Source: Desulfuromonadales bacterium (GTDB lineage: Bacteria > Desulfobacterota > Desulfuromonadia > Geobacterales > Pseudopelobacteraceae). Taken from it: 64,000 nt of DNA. Where the stretch lies: positions 62,001 through 126,000 of the forward strand of contig DUZX01000003.1 in assembly GCA_013349325.1 (NCBI GenBank). Reading direction: 5' to 3'. The notes beneath the pieces were generated by a model. The model saw nothing but the letters and a program-made list of their open reading frames with translations, did no database searches and was not told where the DNA came from. The translations under genes were made by a program, and so were the position numbers. Shown piece by piece: positions 13,101 through 42,005 of the stretch. How positions within the stretch are numbered: the stretch's first letter is position 1; every line of letters starts with the position of its first letter.

Positions 13101-16100
13101 AACTACCGATACGGGCAGTAATTTCACCTTCAGCATGGTGCCGCCAGGTGCGTACAAACTCTCGTCCACCGATCCGACTACCGGGCTGGTGATCACTGGT
13201 GCTGAGTTCACCATGATGGGCGGGGAGACGCTGACCCAGAATCTGCAGCTCAAAAAGAGCGGCAGAGTTGCTGCCAGTCTGTTCTATGCAGATGGTCTCA
13301 CCGCTCCGTCATATAATTATTATGCTCAGGATGTGAATTTGCAGGTTCTGGATATGGCAGGAACGGTTTTAAGCACCAATCCAAATGTGTATAACGGCAA
13401 TCCGCAGAGCAGCAGGGTCTTTGCCAGTGACGAGGCCCAGTTCAAGGTGCGCATGACTTACAACTATTCTCAACCGGGGGGTACACGTTTGACTTCGGCT
13501 GGTGAAACGACAATGAATGGTTTCACCAGTACCAGCAGCACACCACTGCCGGTCAGCGTCATCCTGCCGCTCAACTGGGGCAATGTCACTGTGCAGCTGA
13601 AGAACTCGAGCGGTGCCAACTACTCCGGCAGCGCCATTCCGATTGAGCTGCGCGATCCGACCGGTACGACGGTATGGGCGTATGGCAGCAGTGACCCGAC
13701 GACGGGAAAATGTACCATCAACAACCTGATAGTCGGCTCAGACGGTTTTGCGGTCAAGGTGGTTATGAACAATGTTGTTATCGCCGAAACCACAGCATTC
13801 ATGACCACAACCGGCCAGACCCAGACGGTTGATCTGCAGCTTGCCTATGATCCGGTCGCATTCCCGAAAACCCTGTATGACGGCAATGCCTTCCTCTATG
13901 ACATCTATGGTGATGGTTCGCTGCATAACGGCAGGGATGGTGTGTTCTATTATTATAGTGGTCCTGGTGCCATCGTTCTGGATGTGAACAGGCAGAACTT
14001 TACCGGTTCCAGCACTGGCATGGCCGAAGATCAGGGTCGTGTGCTTTCAACCACTCAAGCAGGTTTGGCAGGCCTGAATGTCAATCGTAAGATATATGTT
14101 CCGAAAGATGGTTATTTTGCCCGTTATCTTGATGTCTTTACCAATCCGGGTGCCGATCCGGTCACGGTCAACCTCGGGTTGACCACCAACTTCTACTATT
14201 ATTATGACACGTTTGCCGTTCGGGCTGCTTCCAACGGCATCAGCGATACCGTCCCGACCAATCAGGATTTGACCGGTGCCACCTGGGCCGTCGTAAGAGA
14301 AAATACGGATGTCGATCCGTTCCTGGGAAGTACCCGACCGGCCGTTGCCATGATCTGGGGGGGGGAAAGCGGAGCTTCGCTGATTTCTGACGCCAGTTTT
14401 GGTACAAAACAGACTTACAACCATGCCTATCTGAAAAGCGGATATCAGTCGGTGGTCATACCGGCTGGACAATCAGTGGCGCTGATGAGCTTCCTGGTTC
14501 AGCAGACAACGGTTGCATCGGCCAAAGCCTCTGCCGAACGCCTGGTGCAGCTACCTCCCGAGGCACTGAGCGGGCTTTCCAAGCCGGAAGTGGACATGAT
14601 TGCCAATTTCAAGATGCCTGCCAACGGGACCAGCACCCTGGCAGCGTTGCCGCCTGCCACCGGAACAGTGAACGGTGCATTCAAAACCTATGACAGCTTG
14701 TCTTCCAGCCTGGTATCAGGTAATTCCGTTTTCCTGCAGAGCAGCAGTCCGTATTTCACTCGTGTGTACAAAGTATACGCAGATAACAGCGGTGTTTTTA
14801 CGTTTAACGGAACACCCAACGGCGACACCACTGCCATGACAATTCCTCTGACCGGATTCACCCTGTCTGGCGTCATCAATAACTTTGCCTACAGTATCAC
14901 ATCGCCAGCGGTCAGCGGCTCTTTTGCCGATGGCTCCAGCACGACAACTCAGGATATCATTTTCAGCAATTCCGGCCGCATCAAGGCCAGAGTTCTCTAT
15001 GCCGACGGTACGACGCCGGTAACCAACGCTGTCGTGCGGGCATCATTTGGTACCAACTGTCAGACGTCATATTGCAGCACTACGTACAATTTTTTGCATG
15101 TGGGCGATTCATATCTGCTCGATTTTGCCCAGGCCGGGCAGCACAACCTTACGGTTGCGATTCCGCCTCCGACGGCTATCAGTTCTGGCGGTGCTTCTCT
15201 GACGCTATCCGGTACGGTGACTGCGGTAACAGGAAGTGACAATCTGATTGAACTGCGTCTGCCGCTGTTAGGAAAAATATCCGGGACGATCAAAAACCGG
15301 GCCGGCAACGTGGTTCCCGGCGCCACGATCTATTTGAGATCGGCCAGTGGTTTCAACCGTTATCTCACCACGTATGACGGTACAAACGGCGGCCCGGCCG
15401 GCAGTTTTACGTTTGCCGAACTTCCGGCAGATACCTATACGCTGGAAGTTGATGATACCAGCATCTACGGAGTCGTACATCGCTACACTGTTGTCCTGGC
15501 AGCCGGGGGAGATGTTAGCGGGACGTATCAATACGGAATGTCCGGCACCGTGACCGGTAAGGTCAGTTTCCGTTCGTCCGTAAATGATGCTACCTATTTC
15601 CCTACCAGCGTTTCCATCGATGTTATGGATCCGGACACCGGTGCTGTACTGACAACGGCTTATATCAATTACAACAGCGCCAACAGCAGTTTTACCACGC
15701 CGCGTTTCGCCGGCAACGGAAAACCAGTCACGGTAAAGGCGAGCTATCGTTTCTCTGTCGGTGATGGGACGTATCGCACCTACAGTGCTACGACCACTGT
15801 TGCCAGCTTTACCAGCGATAACCAGCAACTTTCGGCAAATCTGACCCTGCCTGCAGACCGGGGTAATGTGCAGGTGCTGGTGATGGATTCAAACAATGCT
15901 GCGCTGCTGAAACCGGTCATGTTCGAATTGCACGATACGACCGGCCAAGTTGCATCCAGCAGCTACACGTATAGTAATGGGCAATATACCTTCACGGGGA
16001 TCTATTCGGATCAAACAACATTGACCGCTAGGGCCGTCTATATGGGGCACAATTATGATCTGCCGGTCACGTTTATTGTGAACGGCACGGCGACCGTCAC

Positions 16101-18144
16101 TATCACAATTCCGCACGCCACGCTGAGCGGCAGCGTCTTTGCCGGTGACGGAGCAACCCCGATCGGAAGTTTCACCTATTCGCTGACCAGTGCCGACGGT
16201 ACGTTTACGTATCCCTGCGGCGGCCAGGAAACCGGCTATTACAACTCTGTCTATGTCACTGGAATTGGGAATGTCTATCGTATGACACTGTCTGATATTT
16301 ATACGTGCAGCAGCTCAAACGGTTTATGGGCCTTGACACAGTTGGCCTATAATGATCCACCCAATGCCGGATATAACTATGCGCATAATGTACCTCGCCT
16401 GATCCCACTTCAGAACGGCGACCAGCTCGCGCTGCGTATAACGTCTTCGACGTTCGGTACCTTTACCTACAATTTCACCTATACGGGTAATTCTACGGTG
16501 GATGCTACATTGCCGATCTTTGTAGCCAAGGGGGCGGTAACACGCGCTGACGGCAGTGCGGTCAGCAACGCTTCGGTCACCATGGTAGTTACGGATAACG
16601 CCACACCGCCGGTACCGCATACATACGCCGGTACAACGGACCTATCCGGCAACTTTGCAATTCTTGCTGGAACGACGACCGGTACGTACAGCCTCAACGC
16701 CCAGACGACGTGGGGCAGTACGGGGAGTTATGCCGGAAGCGGGATTATTGACGGAACACAGTGGGTTACTCGTGGCCTTGACATAACATTGGAGCCGTCT
16801 GGGACGATTACCGGCACGGTTATGCGGGCCGGGTTGCCTCTGGCGAATGCATCTTTGACGCTCACGTTGACAGATCGCTCATTCTCTCAGCGGTTCTCTA
16901 GTGATTCTCAAGGACAATTTACCGCTCTGGATGTACCGTTCGCACCGTTCACGGTGTCAGCTTCTGCGTATGATAGTTTTGCTGATGGGGACATGTACTC
17001 CAATACGGTCAGCGGCACATTAACCGCCCTGGCTCCGACTGCTGATGTCCAACTGGTATTCGATCTGGATCCGGGGACGGTGTATGGTACCGTGCATTTC
17101 CAATCCGGCTCTGTTGCCGGTTCCTATAATTCTGTCACACTGACGAGAGTAAGTACGGGAGAACTCTTTTATCCTTCAATCGACGGCAGCGGTAACGGCT
17201 TTTATGAAGAGAGAAACCTGCCGGCTGATGGGTATCTGGCGCAAGCCACCCTTACTCCAAGTGTTGTCTCACCAGATGTTGGTGTAGCGGAGACCGGCAG
17301 CAGCTACGGTATTCTGACTAACACCGGGACGCTCAGACTTGATCTTAATCTACGGCCGGAAGTTTCACTGCAGGGGACAACGACGACAGAACTTCTCGAC
17401 AGCACGAGCGGATTTAAATACGGTATCGGCGTCGGTGGAGTACTTGCCTACGGCGGTGGCACAACCAGCGCTTACAGTAGTCCGTTCAATGGTTCTTACC
17501 TGTTCTATGAAGATAGTGCTGCATCGGACTTTACGGCAACAAGTGGCTGGTTCGACCCGACCGTAAGCGGATTGTTCTACCTGAAACCTGCCGTTTCCGG
17601 CGGAATGGTACTCAGCCGGAAACTGTACCTGCCACCCGCCGGAGGTTATTTGCGCTATCTGGAGATCATTGACAATCCGTCAGCCAGCCCGGTTTCGATT
17701 TGGCCTCGTCTATACGGCCCCCTGGCGACTCCGGCCAGCGGTGCTTGGAGCTTCAATGCTGACCCTGCAACCACCGGTTACGCCCTTGAGCAGGCTGCTG
17801 GCGATCCTCTCATGCCGCAGGTGGGGATGGTACTGCAGGGGGTAGACTCTTCAGTTTCTCCGCTTCCTTTGCAGTTTTATGCAGATTCGGCAGCAACAGC
17901 GGACGTTCCCAACTGGTACTGGTTCGGCTCTGTTCCAGCTGGCGGCAGGTCTTGCGTAGTGCATTATATCTTCCAGTCCGGCCCCCTTGATACTGTGACT
18001 GACCTCGAAGCTCGCGCCAAAGCCTTGCAAAGCCTGGATGGCGCGGCGTTAGGAGCCCTCGGTTTCTCAGCCGATCCGCTCTTTGGTCTGACAGCTGATG
18101 AACGGACCTGTATCATGAATTTCAACGTGCCGCCGGCACCGTAA
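1165..18144 (+). CDS. Giant secreted multidomain protein (5659 residues, carboxypeptidase-regulatory-like and Ig-like repeats)
   Basis: One uninterrupted 17-kb frame. The start at 1165 follows AGGTGG; ATG 1186 is an alternative. Residues 1-32 are a Sec signal peptide (KTLIRTLALLIVV core, cleavage after AQA). A CARDB-like segment lies near 422-510. Many carboxypeptidase-regulatory/CNA-B-like repeats ('G.V...DG.P...A.V...T...G.F.F..VP.G') run from about 953 to 2165 and again from 2870 on. Two Big_5-like domains ('ITFTEPV', 'IMFSEPV') lie at 2166-2371 and Ig-like domains starting D.TPP/TAP at 2372-2780. Three copies of a roughly 265-residue module occur at about 3482, 4229 and 5397. I see no catalytic motif, LPXTG, PEP-CTERM, autotransporter or T1SS end, so the route past the outer membrane is unknown. 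A surface or matrix role is inference. The frame is intact over 5659 codons, which argues for selection. Confidence 0.93.
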   Translation: MNYGKLSMNIKTLIRTLALLIVVTGTAGTAQAYEGRFLAHEDIILYGMGLKVEPARQVVPKNIATIVSSYTQVPTLPNAEIPPLAADALVKGTLRGPGLETPLELTARANTPFNIPPLTVPGIYSLDNIRLESGGEVLLRGTPESVTIEIIEKLLVSQITARPLTAQEIKDKGIVFDKTNFQAYNFTAAFAIGSGDPVKINMPVILPNLAGATDVNVSEAGIGSTIPEPQLKDVRTIIPDSLKLAQTKVPNLSVKSFSLKALDYKGNSFDVPPIPGVIVIPGDIGFLNQYFSVMLMVGNVAPEYSNLVVKDITATILLPAGNDKVVGTSDDPLAMANTTKGPSPKLQAVVQPGPDGKLGTADDIVSLAPGESGNAEFLVEGRREGSHTIEMEITGTLVGLPIGPVTVRGRAMGTVLVRNPNFTLTFTHPDVVNAGEAYTLDVTVTNTSQSPANFVSVNLHQQQISGADLIGEGSKQIETIPPGDSATVSFDLRSKVSGTIFAATLDADDHVSGRFQLKTSVGELGIPLSPDSLVLPKEAGSLPKSLRDAAIGVLGKAYAVATAPDAALPKDIQRFGKKIVWDRGIEVAQAGFRYTLHEPLPDSAEQLLLDFMGSNYTRLAETNPLPADRANAESDYNGFDDLRRRSVRGDVLADAVANLLKPDLTAKGGADFQRDLASKIAYRPEHISVMLDSGSAPLPVTLTLIDSTGRKLGGVGDKGKIVKEIPYSDYLIFKDQTVTSGQLAMVSVPTLGAFRIRVERLPGADPAAPFNLAIVAPDAAGVLQQRSFSALTTATLPTVDLTSPYSFTVELYADGVPLAGAPQTATITRAIPDIAPSIISVVQQPDADVFKNDCGIWRFGRVVAALFSEEVTAASVQDKLARTLISNYTLDGNQVVGVALQPGNRIAFLALRDPVGPFVPRSITFDNISDRRGHQLASQSVPIEATIEDAGAVVSGKVLQPDGNLLSGAEVRLFTQVQVGLECTNFWYGVSSKTTGADAAFGWDYVLKQTNKIVALNPDDGEFRALPFSVARNGQRLNVNVVFLGRGTLTGKVLGEDGMTPLKDAQIRVTSLTDNSQFAFTTDSSGTYAIAKIPVGNLIVEAVHLGTNSKITQSSYIGAAGSSVELNLVLLTETVRKITVKYGAITGHVLHTDGASAVPGVPVYGFYQDNSQDGVRCPADSEGRRPPECAVASALTSSVGAYNFTDVPSGDYRIYTFDQAASQEGNARITLAPDGTISANILLNGGFGTIKGIVKGADGVPVADAEVGGGLSLTRTDANGLFTLTDVPVGSRTIVAVSQALLAKGQVTVDVSTPGVEYGATIVLQSQGGIYGTILKADNSLASGIKVYLLQDGDGGKAMVASTVSNSTGAYQFANVPVSGGQYYVSAFLPDLSDGNIGITSIRFQGQRVRLDLTFKGKGTVTGGIFDANGTTPLVGKVSVSALRVVAAQSGQELIGLSFEYTPHLQIIDTTFASNRFSFGNVFVGDFVITAAGAFSPDPVTFKGEIKTNGETQDLLIKLTATSVVTGTVYGPDGVTVSKNALITYKSDEFKTICSESGGESSCTALPQGIQSETAVSDEFGKFTLPLVNAGKFTLTVEERDSAGNPTGRIGKLSGLVRAGQTSDVAVRLQARAPVKVTVFTHNSTTPVPNAWVTVEEATNIGNTTRKYTTDANGVVTFSGADALNEGSFTVKAESNDGFVGRASGKIVTDGTEVVVNVYLFDHTVTVKGVVYRPDGITPVANAEVSISNASGDLAFAVTNSAGEYSQDFIPLGDFRAEVFEAATGRRGFATATAYLSIPTVTVNISEMAIGQVQGALFQSGALTPLSRWQITLSQTSPSGRSMYLVVTSGLDGRFVFPGVPVGEFRISAYSAGQNQVFAQGYLTREGEIVDIPMVANLVKPALGSINGWVYHPDGKPAADATVCLLSDYSGQCARITTADSDGLFNFVDVGLGRFTIRAGSQVTRESGMGYGDLPYAGATSYVKVVLAGLGTIGGTVLDSGTVMTGAEVVLEKFPDAGCGASKCTNFSDPTTGRFTFPNVPAGPFTVYAKDPVNPLKNGSAGGILNPGATAEVTVAFADTGSLKVKVIFVNGNPAVGIVAELRRTDGFTLYHDSDGSGLVTFIGVPKGDYLLILQDPAGLGLAKKSLQIVADLDLTNSPIMLDEAPPAVTSSSPLPGQIRVALATPIVITFTEPVQPGSISPASLSVTSAVGPVEGFREMSVNDTVVTFTPTQPLKDETTYSIRVSGVKDRVDRSMLQDFVAKFTTVDITPPRIVSFGPDKSSSGAPLESVIRIMFSEPVNPAAFSGTAITVSDGTALLAGRVDMVFGNTGMVFTPTYPLKENTLYTVTLLPASDLSGNQQSAEPPYTFRSLDRTPPVISSLTTPATVIENAVVTVTPVFGNAADIAVVDWYLNGAPAGAVRVAQSPTYSFSFQALPSLGIPNGTPIKVSAIATDTSGNRALIGTETSISVIADTPPTATITLPAGGAVVRTGDRVVVRVVAQDDMGIVRIAYQANGGQFPASDTVAVTPTALSAQKDFAFYVPLDALPGSQIVINATVVDSKGQSGTAVPVSITVSDATPPVVLFAGLSSGAVVRTGQKITAVVTANDLGGIKQVSFRVNGGTPEVRDITPPQNSVAATFSYTVPANFTSQDTVHLEATAIDVANNSAAAPAVVLSVADTTAPQVTLHTVGNTSFIVPGHTVTIVVDAQDDTEVTGITLSGSGAFSYSNSAVLTPAGTVQSSFVINIPANLAEGTILNLTATAGDASGNVGTSTTLNLTARSLTTLQLPASQLLAAGETVQLAITLDQPAPSTGMQLDLTPSSAALQLQPASLVFAAGETVKNFTLSAMSGGTNSFDVASQGISLGRVSVTIRGGIVTGKVVTVTNQPVASAQVVVNGVTTTSAADGTFLVEGIAGQPTANSGPATAVTIKAYDTPNKLQGAASGVMNAPNGFLRGVTVIVTEAGSVTGSVKRADQTVVAAGVQVDLLDPQNLTAPLFTAFTAADGSYSFPQVPLGTYTVEAHDTTGNRGRSSAYLTVSGAQVVVPVVFLGNGTVTGTVLDSSKTGISGLTVTMQNGSMFGLVSRTVTTDSSGSFTFADVSVGNFFISTKDPVTDLGANTSGSIATNGQTVTANLNLAAWASLEGHVYRVDGVTPAAGVTVQAGGHTTTTDSLGSYRFEVMALSYYTLTAQDSAARTKGSVSVSLQVYKENRVQDVTLNGSSSMIVTVVDSSSTPVPGARVSLTDGFGNLYGSSDALGTLTLEHIYSGNYTLASSSGRLHGSLKGSIAAGPPVSVFITIAADPSATISGTIFAPDGQTPAGGVTVYARSSKYSGRMTTAGDGTYLFSTLPLDTYDLTVYGANGQLRAKAGSIVLTADGEIATRIMTMVGLGTVNGRVLEPNSSTGSPNMPVTVRALNPDFGRSYSMRTNAAGFYQVDQVPVGGIGVSAGDGSVQKLGDAVGTLSGDGAVLTLDVALQSNAVALPQTLYDGNYLDFPVPGNGSLSSTVFGNTGGALLTVTPTGGTPVNFAAVNAGTQEQQGREIALRQPDVGGLSVTRKIYVPQDGYFARYLEIFDNLTGLDKGVTVGVKNGFYSERDPNYYFFINSTSSGDTVLQTGGTIPDYWGVFDNYYGPNSLWGGYSKTAMIWGGPGAATAVTQIAATPTNIWTKSGFNAAWDVTVPANGRVAIMHFVVQNSSVSGATASAERLVQLPPEALSGLSQDELLAIRNFAVPVDGSSPHSALPPLTGSVTVTVQDALGAIPSGALVKVDLQSASPIFNRIYTASMNSGTGQAVFTSNMNNPNQGPQIALPVGPYTVTAKRTFGPNYFGTIPTPVTISTQGGFAIGSTQAVNTLSFTNSGNINGVVRKSTGESLTNGAITYGSGTELVTSPASDGSYSFNILNPGDSYINVSVPSLDGGTPVTVQQKVTVIAGQTVTADITLPPLGTVTGQLLSWNGNPQPGFSVTLTGVSSGMTRTKTTDTGSNFTFSMVPPGAYKLSSTDPTTGLVITGAEFTMMGGETLTQNLQLKKSGRVAASLFYADGLTAPSYNYYAQDVNLQVLDMAGTVLSTNPNVYNGNPQSSRVFASDEAQFKVRMTYNYSQPGGTRLTSAGETTMNGFTSTSSTPLPVSVILPLNWGNVTVQLKNSSGANYSGSAIPIELRDPTGTTVWAYGSSDPTTGKCTINNLIVGSDGFAVKVVMNNVVIAETTAFMTTTGQTQTVDLQLAYDPVAFPKTLYDGNAFLYDIYGDGSLHNGRDGVFYYYSGPGAIVLDVNRQNFTGSSTGMAEDQGRVLSTTQAGLAGLNVNRKIYVPKDGYFARYLDVFTNPGADPVTVNLGLTTNFYYYYDTFAVRAASNGISDTVPTNQDLTGATWAVVRENTDVDPFLGSTRPAVAMIWGGESGASLISDASFGTKQTYNHAYLKSGYQSVVIPAGQSVALMSFLVQQTTVASAKASAERLVQLPPEALSGLSKPEVDMIANFKMPANGTSTLAALPPATGTVNGAFKTYDSLSSSLVSGNSVFLQSSSPYFTRVYKVYADNSGVFTFNGTPNGDTTAMTIPLTGFTLSGVINNFAYSITSPAVSGSFADGSSTTTQDIIFSNSGRIKARVLYADGTTPVTNAVVRASFGTNCQTSYCSTTYNFLHVGDSYLLDFAQAGQHNLTVAIPPPTAISSGGASLTLSGTVTAVTGSDNLIELRLPLLGKISGTIKNRAGNVVPGATIYLRSASGFNRYLTTYDGTNGGPAGSFTFAELPADTYTLEVDDTSIYGVVHRYTVVLAAGGDVSGTYQYGMSGTVTGKVSFRSSVNDATYFPTSVSIDVMDPDTGAVLTTAYINYNSANSSFTTPRFAGNGKPVTVKASYRFSVGDGTYRTYSATTTVASFTSDNQQLSANLTLPADRGNVQVLVMDSNNAALLKPVMFELHDTTGQVASSSYTYSNGQYTFTGIYSDQTTLTARAVYMGHNYDLPVTFIVNGTATVTITIPHATLSGSVFAGDGATPIGSFTYSLTSADGTFTYPCGGQETGYYNSVYVTGIGNVYRMTLSDIYTCSSSNGLWALTQLAYNDPPNAGYNYAHNVPRLIPLQNGDQLALRITSSTFGTFTYNFTYTGNSTVDATLPIFVAKGAVTRADGSAVSNASVTMVVTDNATPPVPHTYAGTTDLSGNFAILAGTTTGTYSLNAQTTWGSTGSYAGSGIIDGTQWVTRGLDITLEPSGTITGTVMRAGLPLANASLTLTLTDRSFSQRFSSDSQGQFTALDVPFAPFTVSASAYDSFADGDMYSNTVSGTLTALAPTADVQLVFDLDPGTVYGTVHFQSGSVAGSYNSVTLTRVSTGELFYPSIDGSGNGFYEERNLPADGYLAQATLTPSVVSPDVGVAETGSSYGILTNTGTLRLDLNLRPEVSLQGTTTTELLDSTSGFKYGIGVGGVLAYGGGTTSAYSSPFNGSYLFYEDSAASDFTATSGWFDPTVSGLFYLKPAVSGGMVLSRKLYLPPAGGYLRYLEIIDNPSASPVSIWPRLYGPLATPASGAWSFNADPATTGYALEQAAGDPLMPQVGMVLQGVDSSVSPLPLQFYADSAATADVPNWYWFGSVPAGGRSCVVHYIFQSGPLDTVTDLEARAKALQSLDGAALGALGFSADPLFGLTADERTCIMNFNVPPAP
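11608..12408 (+). repeat. Module A of a three-copy ~265-residue unit in the giant protein
   Basis: Residues about 3482-3748. It begins 'LPQTLYDGN', has a core 'RKIYVPQDGYFARYLEIFDN', and closes 'AERLVQLPPEAL' then 'NFAVP'. It aligns by eye with modules B and C. I do not recognise it as a named domain. Confidence 0.75.
13849..14668 (+). repeat. Module B of the three-copy unit in the giant protein
   Basis: Residues about 4229-4501. It begins 'FPKTLYDGN', has the core 'RKIYVPKDGYFARYLDVF', and closes 'AERLVQLPPEALSGLS'. The sequence after it ('PPATGTVNG...LQSSSPYFTRVY') also resembles the sequence after module A ('PPLTGSVTV...LQSASPIFNRIY'), so the duplicated unit is larger than the module, about 747 residues from A to B. 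Confidence 0.75.
17353..18141 (+). repeat. Module C of the three-copy unit, forming the C-terminus of the giant protein
   Basis: Residues about 5397-5659. It is the most diverged copy. The core reads 'RKLYLPPAGGYLRYLEIIDN' and the end 'LTADERTCIMNFNVPPAP' matches the closing 'NF..P' of A and B. Its position at the very C-terminus suggests that the module is a folding or assembly cap; this is inference. Confidence 0.65.
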
Positions 18145-32507: not shown

Positions 32508-33389
32508 ATGCAGTTACCTATCAGAAAAAATCCCTTACGACAAGTATTAATCATGGATAGCGATTCTATCGTCCCATTCCGTTTTCTTTATAGAGCGGCC
32601 TTTGTCCTTATTGCCGGACTTATGCAGCTTTGTATTTTTCCGTCCCAGGGTGTAGCCGATATTTATCGCTTCGTCACGGTTGATGGTGTCGAGACTTTTA
32701 CCGATGCTCCCCGGGTAAAAGAGGCCAAAATGATCATCAAGGATCGTCCGGCGCCTTCTTCGAAGCGTCGTGGCGGCCAGCAACCCCGAAAATCGCAGAA
32801 AGTACACGATATTTCACTTGAAGAGATCGTCCAGAAAACAGTCCTCGCGGCTTCCAATCCGAACGCTACGTCGCCGGAACCTTTCGAGCCGCATCTGCCC
32901 GGTGTCGGTGGCACGGTTACTTCGCTGGTTGGCATGCGCATTGACCCGATAGATGGCGTCTGGAGACAGCATAACGGTGTTGATATAGCCATTCCTACCG
33001 GTACCGCCGTCATGCCGGTTGCAGCAGGCGTGGTCATTTATTGCGGTGCCCGCTCCGGGTACGGCAATACCGTAATCGTTGAACATGACAACGGTATCGT
33101 GACGCTGTACGCCCACAACAGCCAGATTCTGGTATCACAGGGACAGCCTGTTACCGCAGGCAGCACGCTGGCTCTTTCCGGTTCAACGGGACGCTCCACC
33201 GGTCCGCATCTTCATTTTGAAGCCTGGCAGGCCGGCACCAATATTACCGATGCCTTTGTACCGGGCAGCACGCGTAAACTGTCTGATCTTAGACTGGTTG
33301 CCGCCACTCAGCGCTCGTCCCGTTTCCGCAGTGAAGTTCTCTCGGACGGTTCCGTACTGTTTACCAATCTTCCCGCCTCTCGCCCCTGA
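32508..33389 (+). CDS. Exported M23 (LytM-type) metallopeptidase with N-terminal DUF4124-like segment
   Basis: Three starts are possible: ATG 32508 (AAGG 7 nt upstream, chosen), ATG 32553 (best signal-peptide length, no ribosome site) and TTG 32472 (after GAGAGG). A hydrophobic export segment 'AAFVLIAGLMQLCIF' is followed by 'DIYRFVTVDGVETFTDAP', typical of DUF4124. The peptidase domain has HxxxD ('QHNGVDIAIP') and HxH ('GPHLHFE'), the full zinc-ligand set, so it should cut peptidoglycan peptides. The stop overlaps the start of the aldolase-like gene by 1 nt. Confidence 0.85.
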   Translation: MQLPIRKNPLRQVLIMDSDSIVPFRFLYRAAFVLIAGLMQLCIFPSQGVADIYRFVTVDGVETFTDAPRVKEAKMIIKDRPAPSSKRRGGQQPRKSQKVHDISLEEIVQKTVLAASNPNATSPEPFEPHLPGVGGTVTSLVGMRIDPIDGVWRQHNGVDIAIPTGTAVMPVAAGVVIYCGARSGYGNTVIVEHDNGIVTLYAHNSQILVSQGQPVTAGSTLALSGSTGRSTGPHLHFEAWQAGTNITDAFVPGSTRKLSDLRLVAATQRSSRFRSEVLSDGSVLFTNLPASRP

Positions 33390-34573
33390 TGCTCGATCAG
33401 ATTACAAAATACAGCGATAAACTGGTTGCAGACCGCTCTGCACTCCCCGAACTGATTGCGTTTGCAGCCCAGGATGACAGCATCATTTCGGCCGGTAATC
33501 CTGAACTGGCTGCATTGGCAGCAGATATCCTGAGCCACCTGGATTGCCTGGCCCTGACCGTTGCCCGATCGGCACTCCCCTTTGCCGATTTCCTGTTGCG
33601 GCGGAGTGACCCTGCTGAACAGGCGATCATCCCGCGCGATACCGAAACCCGAACCTTTCTGCACGACATTCCGATTCTGCGGCACACCGGATTCGGACCC
33701 GACCCGGCGCGAACAATCGCGGCACTGCTGGGTAATCGAAAGGGGATCGTGGTCGAAGGGGTCGGTATCATCGCCAGCGGTACCGTAACGGTCGAGCAGG
33801 CCTATATTAACTGGTCATCGGTCTTTCATTCGACCTACATCAAATATCTTGAAGATCTGCTGGAGACCGGCTTTATTCTGCCGGAAGAAGCCGAGGCTTT
33901 CGCCGGATTCAGGACAACCTGGCTGCTGCCGCTTTCAGCGGAGGGGCTGGCGTTTCGTCAGGGGCCGCTGACCGAGCACACCCATATCCTTGACGAGCTT
34001 GTTCACGTCGGTCGCTATACGGTCCAGCGCGGCCTGGTAGATTCGTTCTTCGGCAATATATCCTGCTCACATGACCGGCTGATCTACATTTCACAAACCG
34101 CTTCCAGTCTGGATGAACTCTCTGCCTGCATTGATCCGGTCCCTTTCACGAATACTTCGACCGTCGGTATTACCGCCTCCAGTGAACTTGTGGCACATCG
34201 CAGCATCTACGAGACAACCGGTTGTCACGTTATTCTGCATGGACACCCGCGCTTTGCGGTGATTATGAGTATGCTCTGCCAGGATCAGGAGAACTGTGAT
34301 GTAGCGGATTGCTGGAAGGAATGCCGGAAAGTTCGCTATCTCGGTGACACGCCGGTTGTGGCCGGTGAGATCGGGGCCGGTGGTCTGGCAAAAAACGTCC
34401 CTCCCGTTATCGGCGCGACGGGGAGGGCGATTGTCTACGGGCATGGTGTCTTCAGTATCGGAATGACCGGTTTTCGTGAAGCCTTCCAGGGTCTGGTAGA
34501 CGTTGAAAACTGGTGCCGTGACGAATATTTCAGACGCTTCGATGAAAAATTAATGGAACGCTCAGGCAGCTGA
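33389..34573 (+). CDS. Class II aldolase/adducin-family protein
   Basis: 394 residues. The C-terminal half (about 195-385) carries the family pattern: 'FFGNISCSHD', the metal-binding 'HGHP' and 'VYGHGVFSIG'. The N-terminal half also looks aldolase-like near its end ('VEGVGIIASGTVTVEQAYIN', parallel to the C-terminal 'YGHGVFSIGMTGFREAFQ') but lacks the His pair, so the protein may be a tandem duplication with one inactive half. Substrate is unknown. It overlaps the M23 gene start/stop by 1 nt, and its 3' end overlaps the convergent membrane-protein gene by 12 nt. Confidence 0.75.
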   Translation: MLDQITKYSDKLVADRSALPELIAFAAQDDSIISAGNPELAALAADILSHLDCLALTVARSALPFADFLLRRSDPAEQAIIPRDTETRTFLHDIPILRHTGFGPDPARTIAALLGNRKGIVVEGVGIIASGTVTVEQAYINWSSVFHSTYIKYLEDLLETGFILPEEAEAFAGFRTTWLLPLSAEGLAFRQGPLTEHTHILDELVHVGRYTVQRGLVDSFFGNISCSHDRLIYISQTASSLDELSACIDPVPFTNTSTVGITASSELVAHRSIYETTGCHVILHGHPRFAVIMSMLCQDQENCDVADCWKECRKVRYLGDTPVVAGEIGAGGLAKNVPPVIGATGRAIVYGHGVFSIGMTGFREAFQGLVDVENWCRDEYFRRFDEKLMERSGS

Positions 34574-35653: not shown

Positions 35654-37630
35654 TTACCAGATATATTCAGCAGCTATCTGCCGTTTGTCCTTGCCGGCCA
35701 GGATGTGCAGTATGCGCAGCTGTTTCAACTTGTGTGGCGATAGCGAGCCCAGTGAAATGTAGACAATCGTGCGATCTCGGCGCGCGGCGATCTGTTTGAA
35801 GATGCTGCGGGGCGGTTTGGCAGCCACGTAGACGACATTTTTTTCGGTCGAGTAATCCAGTGCAGCCATCAGCAGAACTTCGGACCCGGTTGCAGCGCTC
35901 TGATAATCAGGATCTTGCCAGACATCCAGCATCCGCCGCGGGGGGAATGAGAGCAGAAACCCCCCGTATTCAGAACGGCAGATGCCCGGCCCGACGATGT
36001 TTTCAGTAGGATCGGTCGCGTAAAAGGCCATATCAGACTCCTGATCATGCTCCCCCAGCCAGGTCATGCGATACGGGTAGCGTCCGGTGCGGCGATCTTC
36101 ATCAAAAATCATCACCAGACTTCCAACGCCACCTTTGGCGCGCTGCTGCTCCCTGACAAAAATCGCCCCGTCGTGAATGTTGCGGATCGTCTCGCGCATG
36201 TCGATGCCATCCAGGAGTGATGAGCTGAATTTTTCCGTTCGACTCAGCTCTTCAGAAAGCTGAAGTTCCCCTTTTCGCTTCAGAAACCGTCCGTACTCTT
36301 CAATGGCGATATCCTCCTGAGGCCAGGAGCAGACCGAAGGATCGTCGAAGCCTTCCAGCCACTCACCGGGACGCTTTTCCCGTTTTCGCTTGAGCAGCCC
36401 GATCCGGGAAAGTCCCTTACTCCGTTTCTGGCGTGGACGAAAGCGTATCTGGCGACTGCCGCCCCACAGCTCTTCCGGCGAGATGCTGATCGTGGCCAGG
36501 TCGCTGCTTTCCGACTGCCAGGGATAACAGGTCGCCAGTCGACAGAATGCGTAGGCAAAATTGTCGTCAACACAGCCACGGGCCGCTGCCAGGAGCTGGA
36601 AGAGATCTGGCAGCAGCATGCCGCTTTGCAGGGCATAGTTTCGGGAGAAGCGGAAAAATGCCCGTTTCTGCCAGAGCTGCAGAATCTCACCGGTCTCCTG
36701 ACGATACTGCCGGGCGGCCTCGCAGAAGAGGCGGTAGATGACGCGCTGCCGGTCGGAAAAACTCCCCTCGCGTCCCGTATGACGGGCAGTTCTACGGATG
36801 GCATTGTCCAGCAGCTGTTCTTCCGGCAGTTCCTGTCTGCCGCCACGGATCAGTTCCAGCGCATGAAAACGTTTGCGCAAGCCGCTACCGGCCTCGACCG
36901 GCTCTTCGGGGAGCGGACCACGGCGGTACTCGTAGACCGCCGAAAGGAACGGAAATTCGGCCAGGATTTCGCGGCAGGAGTCGGGGTGCAGGTTCCAGAT
37001 GCTGACGCCGTCACGCCGCATCCGCTCTAACGGTGCTGCCTGCGGGGTTGCGAAGCTGCACTTGACCCGTTCGAGGTGCGCCATTCCGCAGACGAACAGA
37101 ATGCGCTGATGTTTCTGTGCCAGCTGCTGCAGATGAAAGGCCATGCCCTGTTCCCGGCGCGTATCCTCGCGGCAGGGGGGCTCTCCGTCACAGAATTTCA
37201 GATATTCCCGGTAATAGGCTTCCAGTCCGATACGACAGATGCTGTAGGAATCAGGAAGCCGGTCATGGTGGCGGGGATACCGGTCGGTATCGATATCGAC
37301 GAAATACAGCGGCAGATTCAGCTCAAGCGCCCTGCGTGCCGCCTCTACCAGCGGGTCGGCCGGTTCCACCAGCAGATAGACGGTTTCCCCCTCAACCGGT
37401 TTCCCCCCTTTTTTCGTATTTCTCCGGTAGCTGAGTACCGAAATCTGCGGCAGTCGACGTACGGCGCGTAGAAAAAGAGGTTCAAGGGTGGGGGGGAGTT
37501 CGATCGCGACGGCGTCCGGTCGGACCCGCGCGCAGGCCATGCGCACCAGGTGGGCGAATTCAAGGCGGTAATGCAGTATCGGCAGGGCGTGAATCGGGCC
37601 GAAGTTTTCAAGGTGGAGACGCTGCGGCAT
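35654..37630 (-). CDS. Large protein with TraB/TIKI-like N-terminal domain
   Basis: 658 residues. The first about 200 residues have the TraB/TIKI (PrgY, GumN-related) pattern: a GxxH motif at the start ('FGPIHALP'), 'DAVAIELPP', a conserved 'DTRREQGMAFHLQQL' like the family's R...MA helix, and a second GxxH in 'FVCGMAHLERV'. Eukaryotic TIKI homologues are putative metalloproteases. The remaining about 450 residues match nothing I know, although the set-up recalls DUF5682 proteins, which are encoded with MoxR ATPases. No signal peptide or membrane helix. It starts 3 nt after the AAA+ gene stop without a clear ribosome site, so it is translationally coupled to it. Confidence 0.65.
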   Translation of the reverse strand: MPQRLHLENFGPIHALPILHYRLEFAHLVRMACARVRPDAVAIELPPTLEPLFLRAVRRLPQISVLSYRRNTKKGGKPVEGETVYLLVEPADPLVEAARRALELNLPLYFVDIDTDRYPRHHDRLPDSYSICRIGLEAYYREYLKFCDGEPPCREDTRREQGMAFHLQQLAQKHQRILFVCGMAHLERVKCSFATPQAAPLERMRRDGVSIWNLHPDSCREILAEFPFLSAVYEYRRGPLPEEPVEAGSGLRKRFHALELIRGGRQELPEEQLLDNAIRRTARHTGREGSFSDRQRVIYRLFCEAARQYRQETGEILQLWQKRAFFRFSRNYALQSGMLLPDLFQLLAAARGCVDDNFAYAFCRLATCYPWQSESSDLATISISPEELWGGSRQIRFRPRQKRSKGLSRIGLLKRKREKRPGEWLEGFDDPSVCSWPQEDIAIEEYGRFLKRKGELQLSEELSRTEKFSSSLLDGIDMRETIRNIHDGAIFVREQQRAKGGVGSLVMIFDEDRRTGRYPYRMTWLGEHDQESDMAFYATDPTENIVGPGICRSEYGGFLLSFPPRRMLDVWQDPDYQSAATGSEVLLMAALDYSTEKNVVYVAAKPPRSIFKQIAARRDRTIVYISLGSLSPHKLKQLRILHILAGKDKRQIAAEYIW

Positions 37631-37633
37631 GGG

Positions 37634-38452
37634 TCAGTCGAGATACGGGAGCGCTTCGTTGCCGAGGATGCGGGCTACGGAAAGCCGCAGAAAGTCGAGC
37701 GGCGGGGCAGCGCCGGTCATCGACATTTTAAGCGCATAGCGGGCGATATTGATGCCGTCCCGCACGGAATAGAGCTCGTCATTCTTATGGGCACGCTGCA
37801 GAAACTTCACGACATAGGTGAGGATTTCACTCTCGGCAAAGGGGAGGTTTTCGCTGAGGATGGCCAACTCCTCATCGGCCTCCGGAAAGTCGATGTATAT
37901 CTGGGGCTGTAGTCGCGAATGGATATATTCCGGAATCTCAAAGGTCGAAGAATCTTCGTTCATCGTGACCACAATCCGAAAATCACGCCCGGCCTGGATC
38001 CGCAAACCGGTAATTATCGATTCGACATAACGGCGGTCGTCCAGCAGCGGGGCCAGAGACGCCCACGCTTTCTCACTCATCCGGTTGCCTTCATCCAGAA
38101 TAAGTATGCCGCCGGTGAGCATGGCAGATACCAGTGCTGAAGCCGCATACTGAATGGTACCATCCGGGCCGATTACCGGGGTGATGATCAGGTCTTCGGG
38201 GCGGGTGTCCATGGTGGCCTGAAACAGGTAGACCGGTCGCCCCAGACGCTTGGCCGCCGCATAGGCCAGGGTCGTTTTCCCGACGCCGGGCTTGCCGATC
38301 AGGCGGGGATTAAAGGGTATGTCGCGCTGGTCAATAACCATCCAGGCCGCCAGCAGCTGCAAAATCAGCTCATCCTGTCCAACCCATTGCAGGTTGAGTG
38401 TTACCGGTCGTGCCAGCGAAAGCGAAATTCCGTCGATTGTCATCTTGTTCAC
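37634..38452 (-). CDS. MoxR/AAA_5-type AAA+ ATPase
   Basis: 272 residues from GTG 38452, with GGGGAG 7 nt upstream; ATG 38443 would lie too far. Walker A 'GKPGVGKTT' at 53-61, Walker B 'ILILDEGNRM' with D120-E121, sensor 1 'VVTMNED' with N165, and 'SRLQPQIYIDFP' as the arginine-finger region. MoxR ATPases remodel or activate partner proteins, usually encoded next to them. Here the partner is the TraB/TIKI-like protein; there is no VWA-domain gene. The gene is divergent to pepA across 164 bp. Confidence 0.85.
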   Translation of the reverse strand: MNKMTIDGISLSLARPVTLNLQWVGQDELILQLLAAWMVIDQRDIPFNPRLIGKPGVGKTTLAYAAAKRLGRPVYLFQATMDTRPEDLIITPVIGPDGTIQYAASALVSAMLTGGILILDEGNRMSEKAWASLAPLLDDRRYVESIITGLRIQAGRDFRIVVTMNEDSSTFEIPEYIHSRLQPQIYIDFPEADEELAILSENLPFAESEILTYVVKFLQRAHKNDELYSVRDGINIARYALKMSMTGAAPPLDFLRLSVARILGNEALPYLD

Positions 38453-40211: not shown

Positions 40212-40715
40212 ATGTCCGAATCATGTAATCCTGAAATAGAATATGAACACGAAGATTTCGAGTTTGTAACTATCGAAGAGGAGCTTCAGGTTAATGAGCG
40301 CTGCCAGCAGCTGCTCAAACATTTTTATCTGTATCTTCAGCAGCAGGGCATGTCTGCCGAACAGGCATCGGAACTTGCTTTTAGTGCCGATCTTTATCTG
40401 CGGGATTATCTGCTTGATTTCGGTCGCCAGAATGTTGTGCAGCCGCAACCGGGCATTATCAAAAAATTTGCTGCTTCCTGGTTTATTACGCATACACTCG
40501 ATCCGGAAATGAGTCAGCTGGAGCAGCATCTGACGGCTATTGCAGCGTTGTACCGCTATCTGCGCGTACAACATTTCATCACTCTCCAGGAACTGGCCGT
40601 TCTTGAAGCTGAGGCGGCTGAGCTGGAGTATTACAAAGAGCGCATTGCTACTTTTCTGGCGCTGAGCGGCGATGGTTTTGCGGCATGGGATGCCGAGTGC
40701 CCGGCAAAATTCTGA
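40212..40715 (+). CDS. Conserved-looking helical protein of unknown function
   Basis: 167 residues, preceded by GAGGTG 7 nt upstream of ATG. Very acidic start ('YEHEDFEFVTIEEELQ') followed by an all-helical body rich in Leu, Gln and Tyr ('LLKHFYLYLQQQGMSAEQA', 'LEAEAAELEYYKERIATFL'). No signal peptide, membrane helix or known motif. It stands at the head of a run with the Cys-tailed protein and the DUF815 ATPase (21 and 9 nt gaps), so these three are probably one operon. Confidence 0.75.
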   Translation: MSESCNPEIEYEHEDFEFVTIEEELQVNERCQQLLKHFYLYLQQQGMSAEQASELAFSADLYLRDYLLDFGRQNVVQPQPGIIKKFAASWFITHTLDPEMSQLEQHLTAIAALYRYLRVQHFITLQELAVLEAEAAELEYYKERIATFLALSGDGFAAWDAECPAKF

Positions 40716-40736: not shown

Positions 40737-41138
40737 ATGGCTGCAAAAAAATATAAACAGCTTACTCTGACACTTCTATCGCTGGAGCATAACAGGCCGG
40801 ACTGGTATGTCGATTTTGACGAAGCGACTTTCCGAGACTATTGCCAAATGCTGATCGCTGATATGCGGAAAATGGGCGTTGCGCTCGAAATTGTTCGGAA
40901 TACCGAGAGTGTCATTACGGTAAACAGTTACGTTGATCTCCTCAATGCGATTAAAATATCCTCTGTCGAGGGTGGGCATAGTAACAGATGTGTCGGTCAT
41001 GTCATCGGCATGAGCCCCCATCTGGATATTCGTGAAGATATTGCCGCTGCGGTACGCCGGATCGCCTTTGCACCGGAAACGGTCGTTCCGAGTAACGAAT
41101 TTAAAAAAGTCTGTCACAATTGCGGTTGCGGCTGCTAG
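40737..41138 (+). CDS. Small protein with Cys-rich tail, unknown function
   Basis: 133 residues; AGGAG at 40724-40728, 8 nt before ATG. The body is an alpha/beta domain ('LTLTLLSLEHNRPDWYVDFDEATFRDYC') with no family I recognise. The last residues are 'CHNCGCGC', four Cys and one His in eight positions, which would bind a metal or be redox-active. No signal peptide, so this tail is cytoplasmic. It lies 9 nt ahead of the DUF815 ATPase. Confidence 0.75.
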   Translation: MAAKKYKQLTLTLLSLEHNRPDWYVDFDEATFRDYCQMLIADMRKMGVALEIVRNTESVITVNSYVDLLNAIKISSVEGGHSNRCVGHVIGMSPHLDIREDIAAAVRRIAFAPETVVPSNEFKKVCHNCGCGC

Positions 41139-41147
41139 GTCACTACA

Positions 41148-42005
41148 ATGGAAAGCTCTGCTGTTACAGCTGAAGATATACTCCACAAAATAGGGCTTCT
41201 GGTTGATCGGCTGATGCCGCCTGAACAGATCAAACCTGATTTTGCCGCCCATCTGGCGTTTCGCTGGGAGCGGACCGGAGAAACGGGGCAGCTGCGTGCC
41301 GTCTTGCATCCGCATCTGTTCGAGCTGGACGATCTGGTCGGAGTTGACGATATTCGCGATGCGGTTCTTCGTAATACGATGCAGTTCGTTAAAGGGGTGC
41401 CGGCCAACAACGTCTTGTTGTGGGGAGCACGGGGGTGTGGTAAATCGTCACTTGTCAAGGGTCTCTTGAAACCGTTTGCCCCGCACGGTTTGCGGATCGT
41501 CGAGCTGAAACGGTGGGATATCCTGTCGTTGCCGCACATTATCGCGCAACTGCGGGATGTTCCCTATCGGTTCATCCTGTTTTGTGATGATCTCTCCTTT
41601 GATGAAGGGGAGGGCGATTTTCGGGCGCTGAAAACCCTGCTGGATGGCGATATTGAAGAGCGCCCTGCTAATATTCTGATTTATGCCACGTCGAACCGCC
41701 GTCATCTGATGCCGGAGCGCATGGAAGATAACGTTGGCGGCGGCGAGATACATCCCGATGAATCAGTCGGCGAAAAACTGGCGTTGTCGGACCGGTTCGG
41801 GCTCTCGCTCGGTTTTTATGAACTCGATCAGGACGAATATCTGGCGGTTATCCGTTCGTATGCCGCCCTGAGGAATCTTGGTATTACAGATGATGAAGTC
41901 TGTCGTAAAGCGTTGCAATGGGCCCGATCCACCGGCAGAAGAAGTGGTCGTGCTGCCAGACAGTTCGTGGATGATCTTGAAGGGGCGATTCTGCTGCTAA
42001 AATGA
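41148..42005 (+). CDS. DUF815-family AAA-type ATPase
   Basis: 285 residues. Walker A 'LWGARGCGKSSLVKGLL' is in the mid-N-terminal part, Walker B-like 'FILFCDDLSFDEGE' follows, then 'ILIYATSNRRHLMPERM' as the sensor region and 'LSDRFGLSLGFYELDQDEYL'. These blocks are characteristic of DUF815 ATPases, which are widely conserved but poorly characterised. AGGT lies 7 nt before the ATG. Its stop codon overlaps a possible early start of the HDOD gene (ATGA at 42002). Confidence 0.88.
   Translation: MESSAVTAEDILHKIGLLVDRLMPPEQIKPDFAAHLAFRWERTGETGQLRAVLHPHLFELDDLVGVDDIRDAVLRNTMQFVKGVPANNVLLWGARGCGKSSLVKGLLKPFAPHGLRIVELKRWDILSLPHIIAQLRDVPYRFILFCDDLSFDEGEGDFRALKTLLDGDIEERPANILIYATSNRRHLMPERMEDNVGGGEIHPDESVGEKLALSDRFGLSLGFYELDQDEYLAVIRSYAALRNLGITDDEVCRKALQWARSTGRRSGRAARQFVDDLEGAILLLK

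Follow-up and report, generated by a model that had tools for sequence, protein, structure and literature searches.

A MoxR-type ATPase and its TraB/TIKI-like partner: a conserved gene pair from a Desulfuromonadales bacterium

What could be the task of a MoxR-type ATPase whose neighbouring gene encodes a protein with a TraB/TIKI-like domain instead of one with a von Willebrand factor A (VWA) domain? This question is raised by two genes in a stretch of 64,000 nucleotides, hereafter the window, from a Desulfuromonadales bacterium (assembly GCA_013349325.1, contig DUZX01000003.1, positions 62,001 to 126,000). A sequence-only reading of this DNA had described them as a two-gene unit in which the ATPase might load or activate a putative metalloprotease, possibly in envelope stress or defence. 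The pair is real and conserved and, within the reach of the searches, an undescribed variant of the theme of a MoxR ATPase with a co-factor. Our best reading, to which we would give a probability of roughly 0.45, is that its products jointly form a MoxR-type remodelling machine, cytosolic and driven by ATP, with the C-terminal domain of the partner replacing the VWA adaptor.

Conservation of the ATPase and its partner gene

On the minus strand the ATPase gene comes first and the partner gene follows 3 nt downstream; both were verified to be open frames, placed and spaced as the sequence-only reading had them. The ATPase matches the Pfam family AAA_5 (72.6 bits over residues 51-180, with a cut-off of 22) and, more weakly, AAA_3 (29.9 bits). 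Its nearest solved relatives by sequence in the PDB are midasin, NorQ and CbbQ; the best match in NCBIfam, GvpN, lies far under the family cut-off. The protein contains the motifs GKPGVGKT (53), ILILDEG (116), VTMNE (162) and SRLQP (179), of which we take the first three to be Walker A, Walker B and a sensor-1-like motif. With the AAA_5 match and these motifs, the initial assignment to the MoxR-type ATPases stands. The definition of the MoxR clade includes a beta-hairpin insert in helix 2 (PMC13036017, in the part consulted). The lack of a VWA partner was likewise confirmed, in that no VWA gene is present among the neighbouring window genes scanned. The host genome, an assembly of 72 contigs and 3.58 Mb (completeness 99.96), contains one CoxE-type VWA gene elsewhere, beside its own MoxR-like gene, and one VWA_2 match below threshold.

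Conservation of the pair was followed in 117 close relatives and in 297 genomes drawn from the phylum, with ATPase limits of E<=1e-40 and E<=1e-25, respectively. Among the close relatives, 86 have the partner and 84 the ATPase, the discordant cases being fragments at contig ends (an 88-residue ATPase piece in G029 and a 130-residue partner piece in G057). In the phylum sample the co-occurrence is complete: the partner is present in 50 of the 297 genomes and the ATPase in exactly the same 50, one of which (G244) has only a distant version of the pair. The two genes are also paired physically, since in 41 of these 50 genomes the ATPase gene is found directly upstream of the partner gene, on the same strand and within 1.5 kb. 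In the remaining nine it lies on the same contig at a distance of 7 and 10 kb (two genomes) or on another contig (seven). In seven of the nine the upstream sequence suffices to show non-adjacency, and the linkage has therefore been lost in at least seven genomes that keep both genes; in G192 and G312 the partner is too near a contig end for adjacency to be judged. The pair is thus conserved well outside the window, a point that the sequence-only reading had wanted surveyed.

A scan of 84,980 species genomes yielded 376 stretches encoding relatives, of which the best 80 were used. The named close relatives of the window among these best 80 of 376 are Geobacteraceae, Desulfuromonadaceae and Pelobacter-type metagenome-assembled genomes. 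The ATPase is encoded on the same strand in 71 of the 80 named loci, and within 300 nt upstream in 63 of these 71; three of the nine loci without it have fewer than 200 bases upstream. The identity between copies falls with kinship, which suggests vertical descent. Furthermore, the shared presence and absence in the sampled phylum genomes is more suggestive of a housekeeping machine, as yet uncharacterised, than of virus defence.

Some individual copies deserve mention. In locus L068 (genome G041) the ATPase gene adjoining the partner has one in-frame TGA, which may mean that this copy is broken or that the assembly is wrong there. The pair is also carried, at 41% identity, by plasmid pS13 of Neochlamydia sp. 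S13 (L175:8108-10821), with a TtcA-family gene before it and a hypothetical gene and SurE after it, and this copy was probably acquired by horizontal transfer. Another homologue, 41% identical, lies right at one end of a contig that IMG/VR lists as viral (L021), the only relative found on a viral contig; it may be a mis-binned bacterial contig. The distant version of the pair occurs in loci L066:2616-11837 and L090:6052-10311 and consists of an AAA gene (307 and 317 amino acids, respectively), a protein of 786 and 782 amino acids with a TraB-like N-domain, and then a TPR gene. L066 additionally has a cREC-domain gene and a DUF4062-STAND gene. This version is rare, with one clear relative in 395 genomes.

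Domain make-up of the partner

Searched as a whole at E<=1, the partner matches nothing in Pfam, NCBIfam, PADLOC or the sequences of the PDB. Its N-terminal domain, in contrast to the other parts, can be related to the family DUF5682 by profile comparison: against the N-terminus of a DUF5682 profile of 11 sequences, ranging from E. coli YehM to Deinococcus, hhalign gives a probability of 98.0 and an E-value of 2.2e-13, while 20 column-shuffled controls and one reversed control, made with the whole profile, reach at most 2.1. When the parts of the partner are compared separately, only the N-terminal one matches; the middle region alone has a probability of 0.7 and the C-terminal domain of at most 0.24, although the whole-profile alignment extends into the middle, up to position 454. 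In these separate comparisons, homology over the entire DUF5682 model (PF18934, 727 positions) was not found. Among 31 members of the partner family 20 match DUF5682 at E<=1, and three of the 22 that were scanned individually exceed its cut-off of 26 bits (L075 with 28.0, L076 with 31.5 and L078 with 38.8), in matches that span about the first 80 positions only. The window partner itself has no match to PF18934 at E<=1, and none was detected in 58 relatives. A link to DUF5682 had been suggested for profile searching, and it survives as a distant homology of the N-domain, attached here to a C-terminal domain that is foreign to that family.

The predicted structure of the partner has a mean predicted local distance difference test score (pLDDT) of 75, and most 10-residue blocks up to residue 200 score above 80. 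In structural alignments residues 1-198 match chains of the Tetrahymena complex IV with Z-scores of 10.3-11.0 (the best with 180 aligned residues and a root mean square deviation of 4.7), followed by ChaN (Z 7.8, 154 aligned, 5.0), HopBA1 (Z 7.4, 143 aligned, 3.7) and EreC (Z 6.8, 146 aligned, 3.9). In the benchmark of the aligner itself the best background Z is 7 to 8, and a value below 8 may mean a common arrangement only; the Tetrahymena match therefore carries the weight, and the others are merely consistent with it. The Tetrahymena complex is listed as having a TraB-family accessory subunit (PMC10060162, as far as consulted), and the matched chain would be this subunit. ChaN and HopBA1 are named as structures of the TIKI superfamily in the consulted part of PMC6254334. 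By sequence, the family PF01963 (TraB_PrgY_gumN) is not hit by the window protein; four of the 31 members match it at E<=1, the best at 0.027 and all short of the cut-off, and three match TIGR00261 (traB), the best at E 0.013. Membership of TraB/TIKI, proposed from motifs, is thus upheld for the fold, with its shared alpha/beta core, as supported by structure prediction, and falls short of the Pfam cut-off. The partner resembles the TraB/TIKI/PrgY-ChaN-EreA superfamily in the predicted fold of residues 1-198 and in conserved histidines and glutamates; what sets it apart is that a large new domain follows at the C-terminal side and that it is tied to an ATPase.

This C-terminal domain, about 230 residues long, has a nearly invariant signature, made up of CSxPPED, DGIDxRETxR, WxGEHxQESDMA, GPGI, YGG, PPxR, H642 and R650, and C434, R479, E527, Q530-M534, R566, H642 and R650 are identical in all of 105 distinct sequences. 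These include the window, with duplicate rows and twice-fetched places merged; L117 and L120, which a contig end truncates, were excluded, and L118 has no N-terminus. Besides an alignment of 31 homologues, alignments of 50 (A3) and 79 (A4) of the 81 fetched related loci, each with the window added, were used. In distant lineages the C-terminal domain is better conserved than the N-domain, for example 44-46% versus 27-29% in L084-L086. No significant match to it was found in Pfam, NCBIfam or the PDB. Modelled alone, it gives a pLDDT of 79.3 and a predicted template modelling score of 0.77, the other four models reaching 60-67, and a second structural look at the PDB gave a Z of at most 2.5. Several of 14 weak structural rows are RuvX, Argonaute and RNase H domains, which we take to be RNase H-like or nuclease folds; they lie below significance and serve as a lead only. 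A hidden VWA domain was also looked for. No VWA family is present among the Pfam hits of the 31 members, and the window partner has no DxSxS, the metal ion-dependent adhesion site (MIDAS) motif of VWA domains.

As to catalysis, both GxxH motifs that had drawn attention to the partner are indeed present (GPIH at 11-14 and GMAH at 182-185), together with REQGMA at 159-164. By themselves they are weak evidence, since at least two such motifs occur in 1263 of 5000 composition shuffles of the protein. GPIH furthermore appears to be the wrong first histidine, because its H14 is kept in 73 of the 105 distinct sequences, in comparison to 101 for H20, in the motif LPxLH, and 102 for H185. E44 is kept in 102 and E160 in 104, and H20, E44, E160 and H185 are jointly present in 101 of 104 evaluable sequences. 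In enzymes of the TIKI superfamily a His/Glu set with a similar order is catalytic, and one member that was studied works independently of metal (PMC6254334, same part); the label "metalloprotease" is therefore unsafe for the partner. Only order and spacing speak for the equivalence of the residues, and for one of the four in the studied enzyme the partner has nothing equivalent at that place.

All four residues are kept in 42 of the 50 phylum genomes; six have lost some or all of them, and G192 and G312 cannot be judged. Five of the six, whose genomes measure 1.6-1.8 Mb, come from a single genus, and the sixth is G215. All six retain the ATPase and the C-terminal signature (in this residue check, genome G226 was without the C-terminal part). 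Since the set is lost while ATPase and signature persist, catalysis cannot be the general core function of the pair, and because this is seen in two lineages, the C-terminal domain may be the indispensable part. Loci of two lineages without the His/Glu set are L084, L085, L204, L205, L206 and L086. The distant version (G244) shows the opposite: all four residues are there, and those of the C-terminal signature differ.

Possible roles of the pair

How the two proteins could work together is best considered by comparison with known MoxR systems. CbbO, the co-factor of CbbQ, carries a VWA domain. NorQ-NorD and CbbQ-CbbO resemble the pair of the window in combining an AAA_5-type MoxR ATPase of about 270 amino acids with one dedicated co-factor. 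NorD, too, has a VWA domain, whereas the co-factor in the window has a TraB-like and a new C-terminal domain; the C-terminus of NorD contacts the post-sensor-1 loop of NorQ (both points from the consulted part of PMC13036017). By analogy, the ATPase would form a ring, as is suggested by its family, and the 658-residue protein would be the dedicated co-factor of this ring. The conserved C-terminal domain and the end of the partner would take the place that the VWA adaptor has in NorQ-NorD, RavA-ViaA and YehL-YehP; they would dock on the ring and pass on its force, for which NorD on NorQ is the closest parallel. The TraB-like N-domain would then be a hydrolase-like client module, whose His/Glu set would in most species cleave or bind the client without always being catalytic. 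A cytosolic location of the pair fits, because neither of the two proteins showed a hydrophobic segment at its N-terminus in a crude hydropathy scan. A MoxR ATPase with a further dedicated component is also found in the MoxR-vWA ternary conflict systems (PMC7159879, in the part consulted), from which the pair differs in that no vWA gene is seen beside it. In the consulted main text of that paper (Kaur et al. 2020) TraB, TIKI, YehM and DUF5682 are absent, and a description of the pair was not found in the open-licence literature.

Several points weigh against the remodelling machine with a replaced adaptor. The partner is missing from 21 of 94 close genomes of good quality, so that the pair can be lost and its role is not strictly essential. 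The C-terminal signature is broken at one residue each in G139 and G255 of the phylum set, and Foldseek found no fold match for the C-terminal domain at E<=0.001 in the PDB and among viral models. In the profile-profile test for a hidden VWA in this domain the positive control failed, and the CoxE-type VWA protein of the host might still help the ATPase in trans. For the N-domain, the Tetrahymena chains alone clear the background of the aligner, and with the whole-protein model Foldseek gave no E-value below 0.2. Finally, that the proteins touch, that the ATPase forms a ring, that there is hydrolysis, that the pair is cytosolic and what the C-terminal domain does are all inferred.

The alternative that survives best is that the partner is an active protease or hydrolase of the TIKI/TraB type, fed or switched by the ATPase, the two being an ATP-dependent proteolytic pair. 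We regard this as possible, with more doubt than confidence. The joint conservation of the four residues in nearly all distinct sequences and in 42 of the 48 evaluable phylum genomes, the similar order of the TIKI set and the fold matches of the N-domain are consistent with it; the five genomes of one genus and G215, in which the set is lost and ATPase and signature persist, argue against it, as does the residue of the studied enzyme that is missing its counterpart. It is tentatively proposed that there is a so far undescribed class of MoxR machines in which the VWA adaptor is replaced by an unrecognised C-terminal domain fused to a TraB/TIKI hydrolase fold, acting mostly as an ATP-driven processing enzyme and, in at least two lineages through loss of the active site, as a pure remodelling factor.

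Could the pair instead be what remains of a YehL-YehM-YehP (MoxR-DUF5682-VWA) operon after the loss of the VWA and SWIM genes? In the operon YehL-YehM-YehP-YehQ of E. coli (MoxR-DUF5682-VWA-SWIM) and in DUF5691-MoxR-DUF5682-VWA operons a MoxR gene is followed, as in the window, by a gene for a homologous N-domain (hhalign probability 97-98). More generally, both in E. coli and on plasmids the gene before DUF5682 is a MoxR-type AAA gene, and a VWA gene often comes after it: in the plasmid loci with gene tables an AAA gene comes before in all six and a VWA gene is annotated in four of the six. Together with the three members above the DUF5682 cut-off, this gene order speaks for such an origin. 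The ATPase of the window, however, is of another subfamily. Against a profile of its family YehL scores -0.8 bits and the plasmid homologues at most 10.4, in comparison to 25.7 and 18.5 for the two other MoxR-like proteins of the host that were tested and 127-174 for the ATPases of the distant version; in blastp, window ATPase and YehL give an E-value of 0.046. Moreover, neither the middle nor the C-terminal domain, each compared alone, is related to DUF5682 by profile, no relative among the 58 matched it, and no VWA, SWIM or DUF5691 gene is seen beside the pair. An ordinary DUF5682 protein in a known MoxR-VWA operon of the YehL type, which the sequence-only reading had named as an outcome that would refute its proposal, was therefore rejected, and descent from such an operon by gene loss seems unlikely.

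The gene neighbourhood points to a further possibility, namely that the pair acts on an enzyme of the haem pathway or on a haem protein. In the 123 fetched loci, some of which represent the same place twice (L062 = L148, L021 = L186 and others), the neighbours of the pair vary with the exception of ferrochelatase: in 28 loci (L128:1239-11899, L064, L060 and 25 further) its gene shares the strand of the ATPase gene, lies 199 to 1461 bases away from it and is followed by the pair. Uroporphyrinogen decarboxylase is present in 11 loci, one of them without ferrochelatase. Haem-binding ChaN is among the fold matches, and the insertion of metal cofactors is a task of MoxR pairs such as NorQ-NorD (PMC13036017, in the same part). 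All 28 ferrochelatase loci, however, belong to one part of the tree, where the partner is 62-72% identical to that of the window, so that the adjacency is maybe just an inherited gene order. This neighbourhood was not seen in the window or in the distant lineages, and its absence there, together with the chlamydial plasmid copy, would urge caution. A factor dedicated to haem or tetrapyrroles is thus rather improbable. Other scanned neighbours are SelB (16 loci, mostly just past the partner on the opposite strand), transporters, a peptidase, an RNA methyltransferase, a radical SAM protein, elongation factor G, an alpha-amylase-like protein and an inositol monophosphatase.

A third operon member was sought by reading the neighbours in 17 loci by eye. 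An SNF2 helicase gene (Pfam; 1166 amino acids) lies between ATPase and partner in just two of the 123 loci (L128:4475-7975 and L129:4406-7915), and the candidate was rejected. The helicase of L128 has strong PADLOC matches to DpdE and ZorD, which fall in the helicase part common to SNF2 proteins. It also has one CxC...CxH stretch at residue 81, presumably resembling a SWIM zinc finger. In PADLOC the ATPase has weak generic AAA matches (best E 0.0011, 16.4 bits) and the partner none. Eight of 10 neighbouring genes from other loci are without a match at E<=1e-5; of the remaining two, a methyltransferase matches weakly and the SNF2 helicase matches defence helicases. The pair has no match in 50,697 phage records. 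The survey for phage-defence genes nearby thus established no link, and the envelope-stress or defence role first suggested finds no backing in a PADLOC component, in the mostly matchless neighbours or in a hydrophobic N-terminus. A phage-defence or conflict system, for which the STAND and cREC-domain genes near the distant version in L066, the helicase of L128 and L129 and the Neochlamydia plasmid copy could be cited, is very improbable in view of the rarity of both the distant version and the helicase, the absence from phage records and neighbours such as ferrochelatase, uroporphyrinogen decarboxylase and SelB.

Location in the window and significance

The positions of the two genes and of the domains of their products are collected in Table 1.

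Table 1. Positions of the gene pair and its encoded domains in the window
Feature	Position	Strand	Description and basis
ATPase gene; MoxR-clade AAA+ ATPase, AAA_5 type	37634-38452	minus	272 amino acids, GTG start, open frame; Pfam, PDB sequence matches, motifs, homologues
Intergenic gap between ATPase and partner	37631-37633		3 nt, read directly
Partner gene	35654-37630	minus	658 amino acids, ATG start, open frame; TraB/TIKI-like domain, helical middle and new C-terminal domain
N-terminal TraB/TIKI/ChaN-like domain (predicted), residues 10-203	37022-37603	minus	DUF5682 profile match, structural matches, conserved H20, E44, R159-E160, H185
Helical middle, residues 290-395	36446-36763	minus	predicted helices, block pLDDT 81-94 over residues 291-390
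C-terminal domain, residues 430-658	35657-36343	minus	signature, residue conservation, no structural match above Z 2.5

Elsewhere in the window, an open reading frame of 5659 amino acids (1165-18144), the first 4666 of which were scanned, has repeated carboxypeptidase-regulatory-like, Big_5 and SdrD_B domains and perhaps encodes a giant surface protein. The gene of a DUF815 AAA ATPase (41148-42005, 339 bits) has two small genes upstream of it (40212-40715 and 40737-41138), neither of which matches Pfam at E<=1. The product of 33389-34573 has a class II aldolase domain at residues 203-377, and the preceding approximately 200 residues have no Pfam match.

MoxR ATPases generally use VWA adaptors, and a pair without an adjacent VWA gene offers a simple two-protein system in which the job of the adaptor can be probed. 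As there are natural lineages that have lost the residues of the TraB domain and retain the rest, catalysis and remodelling can be separated without any engineering. In view of the ferrochelatase neighbourhood and the ChaN-like fold, a client connected with haem would merit testing. Finally, the pair could provide a mechanistic setting for DUF5682/YehM, a family of unknown function.

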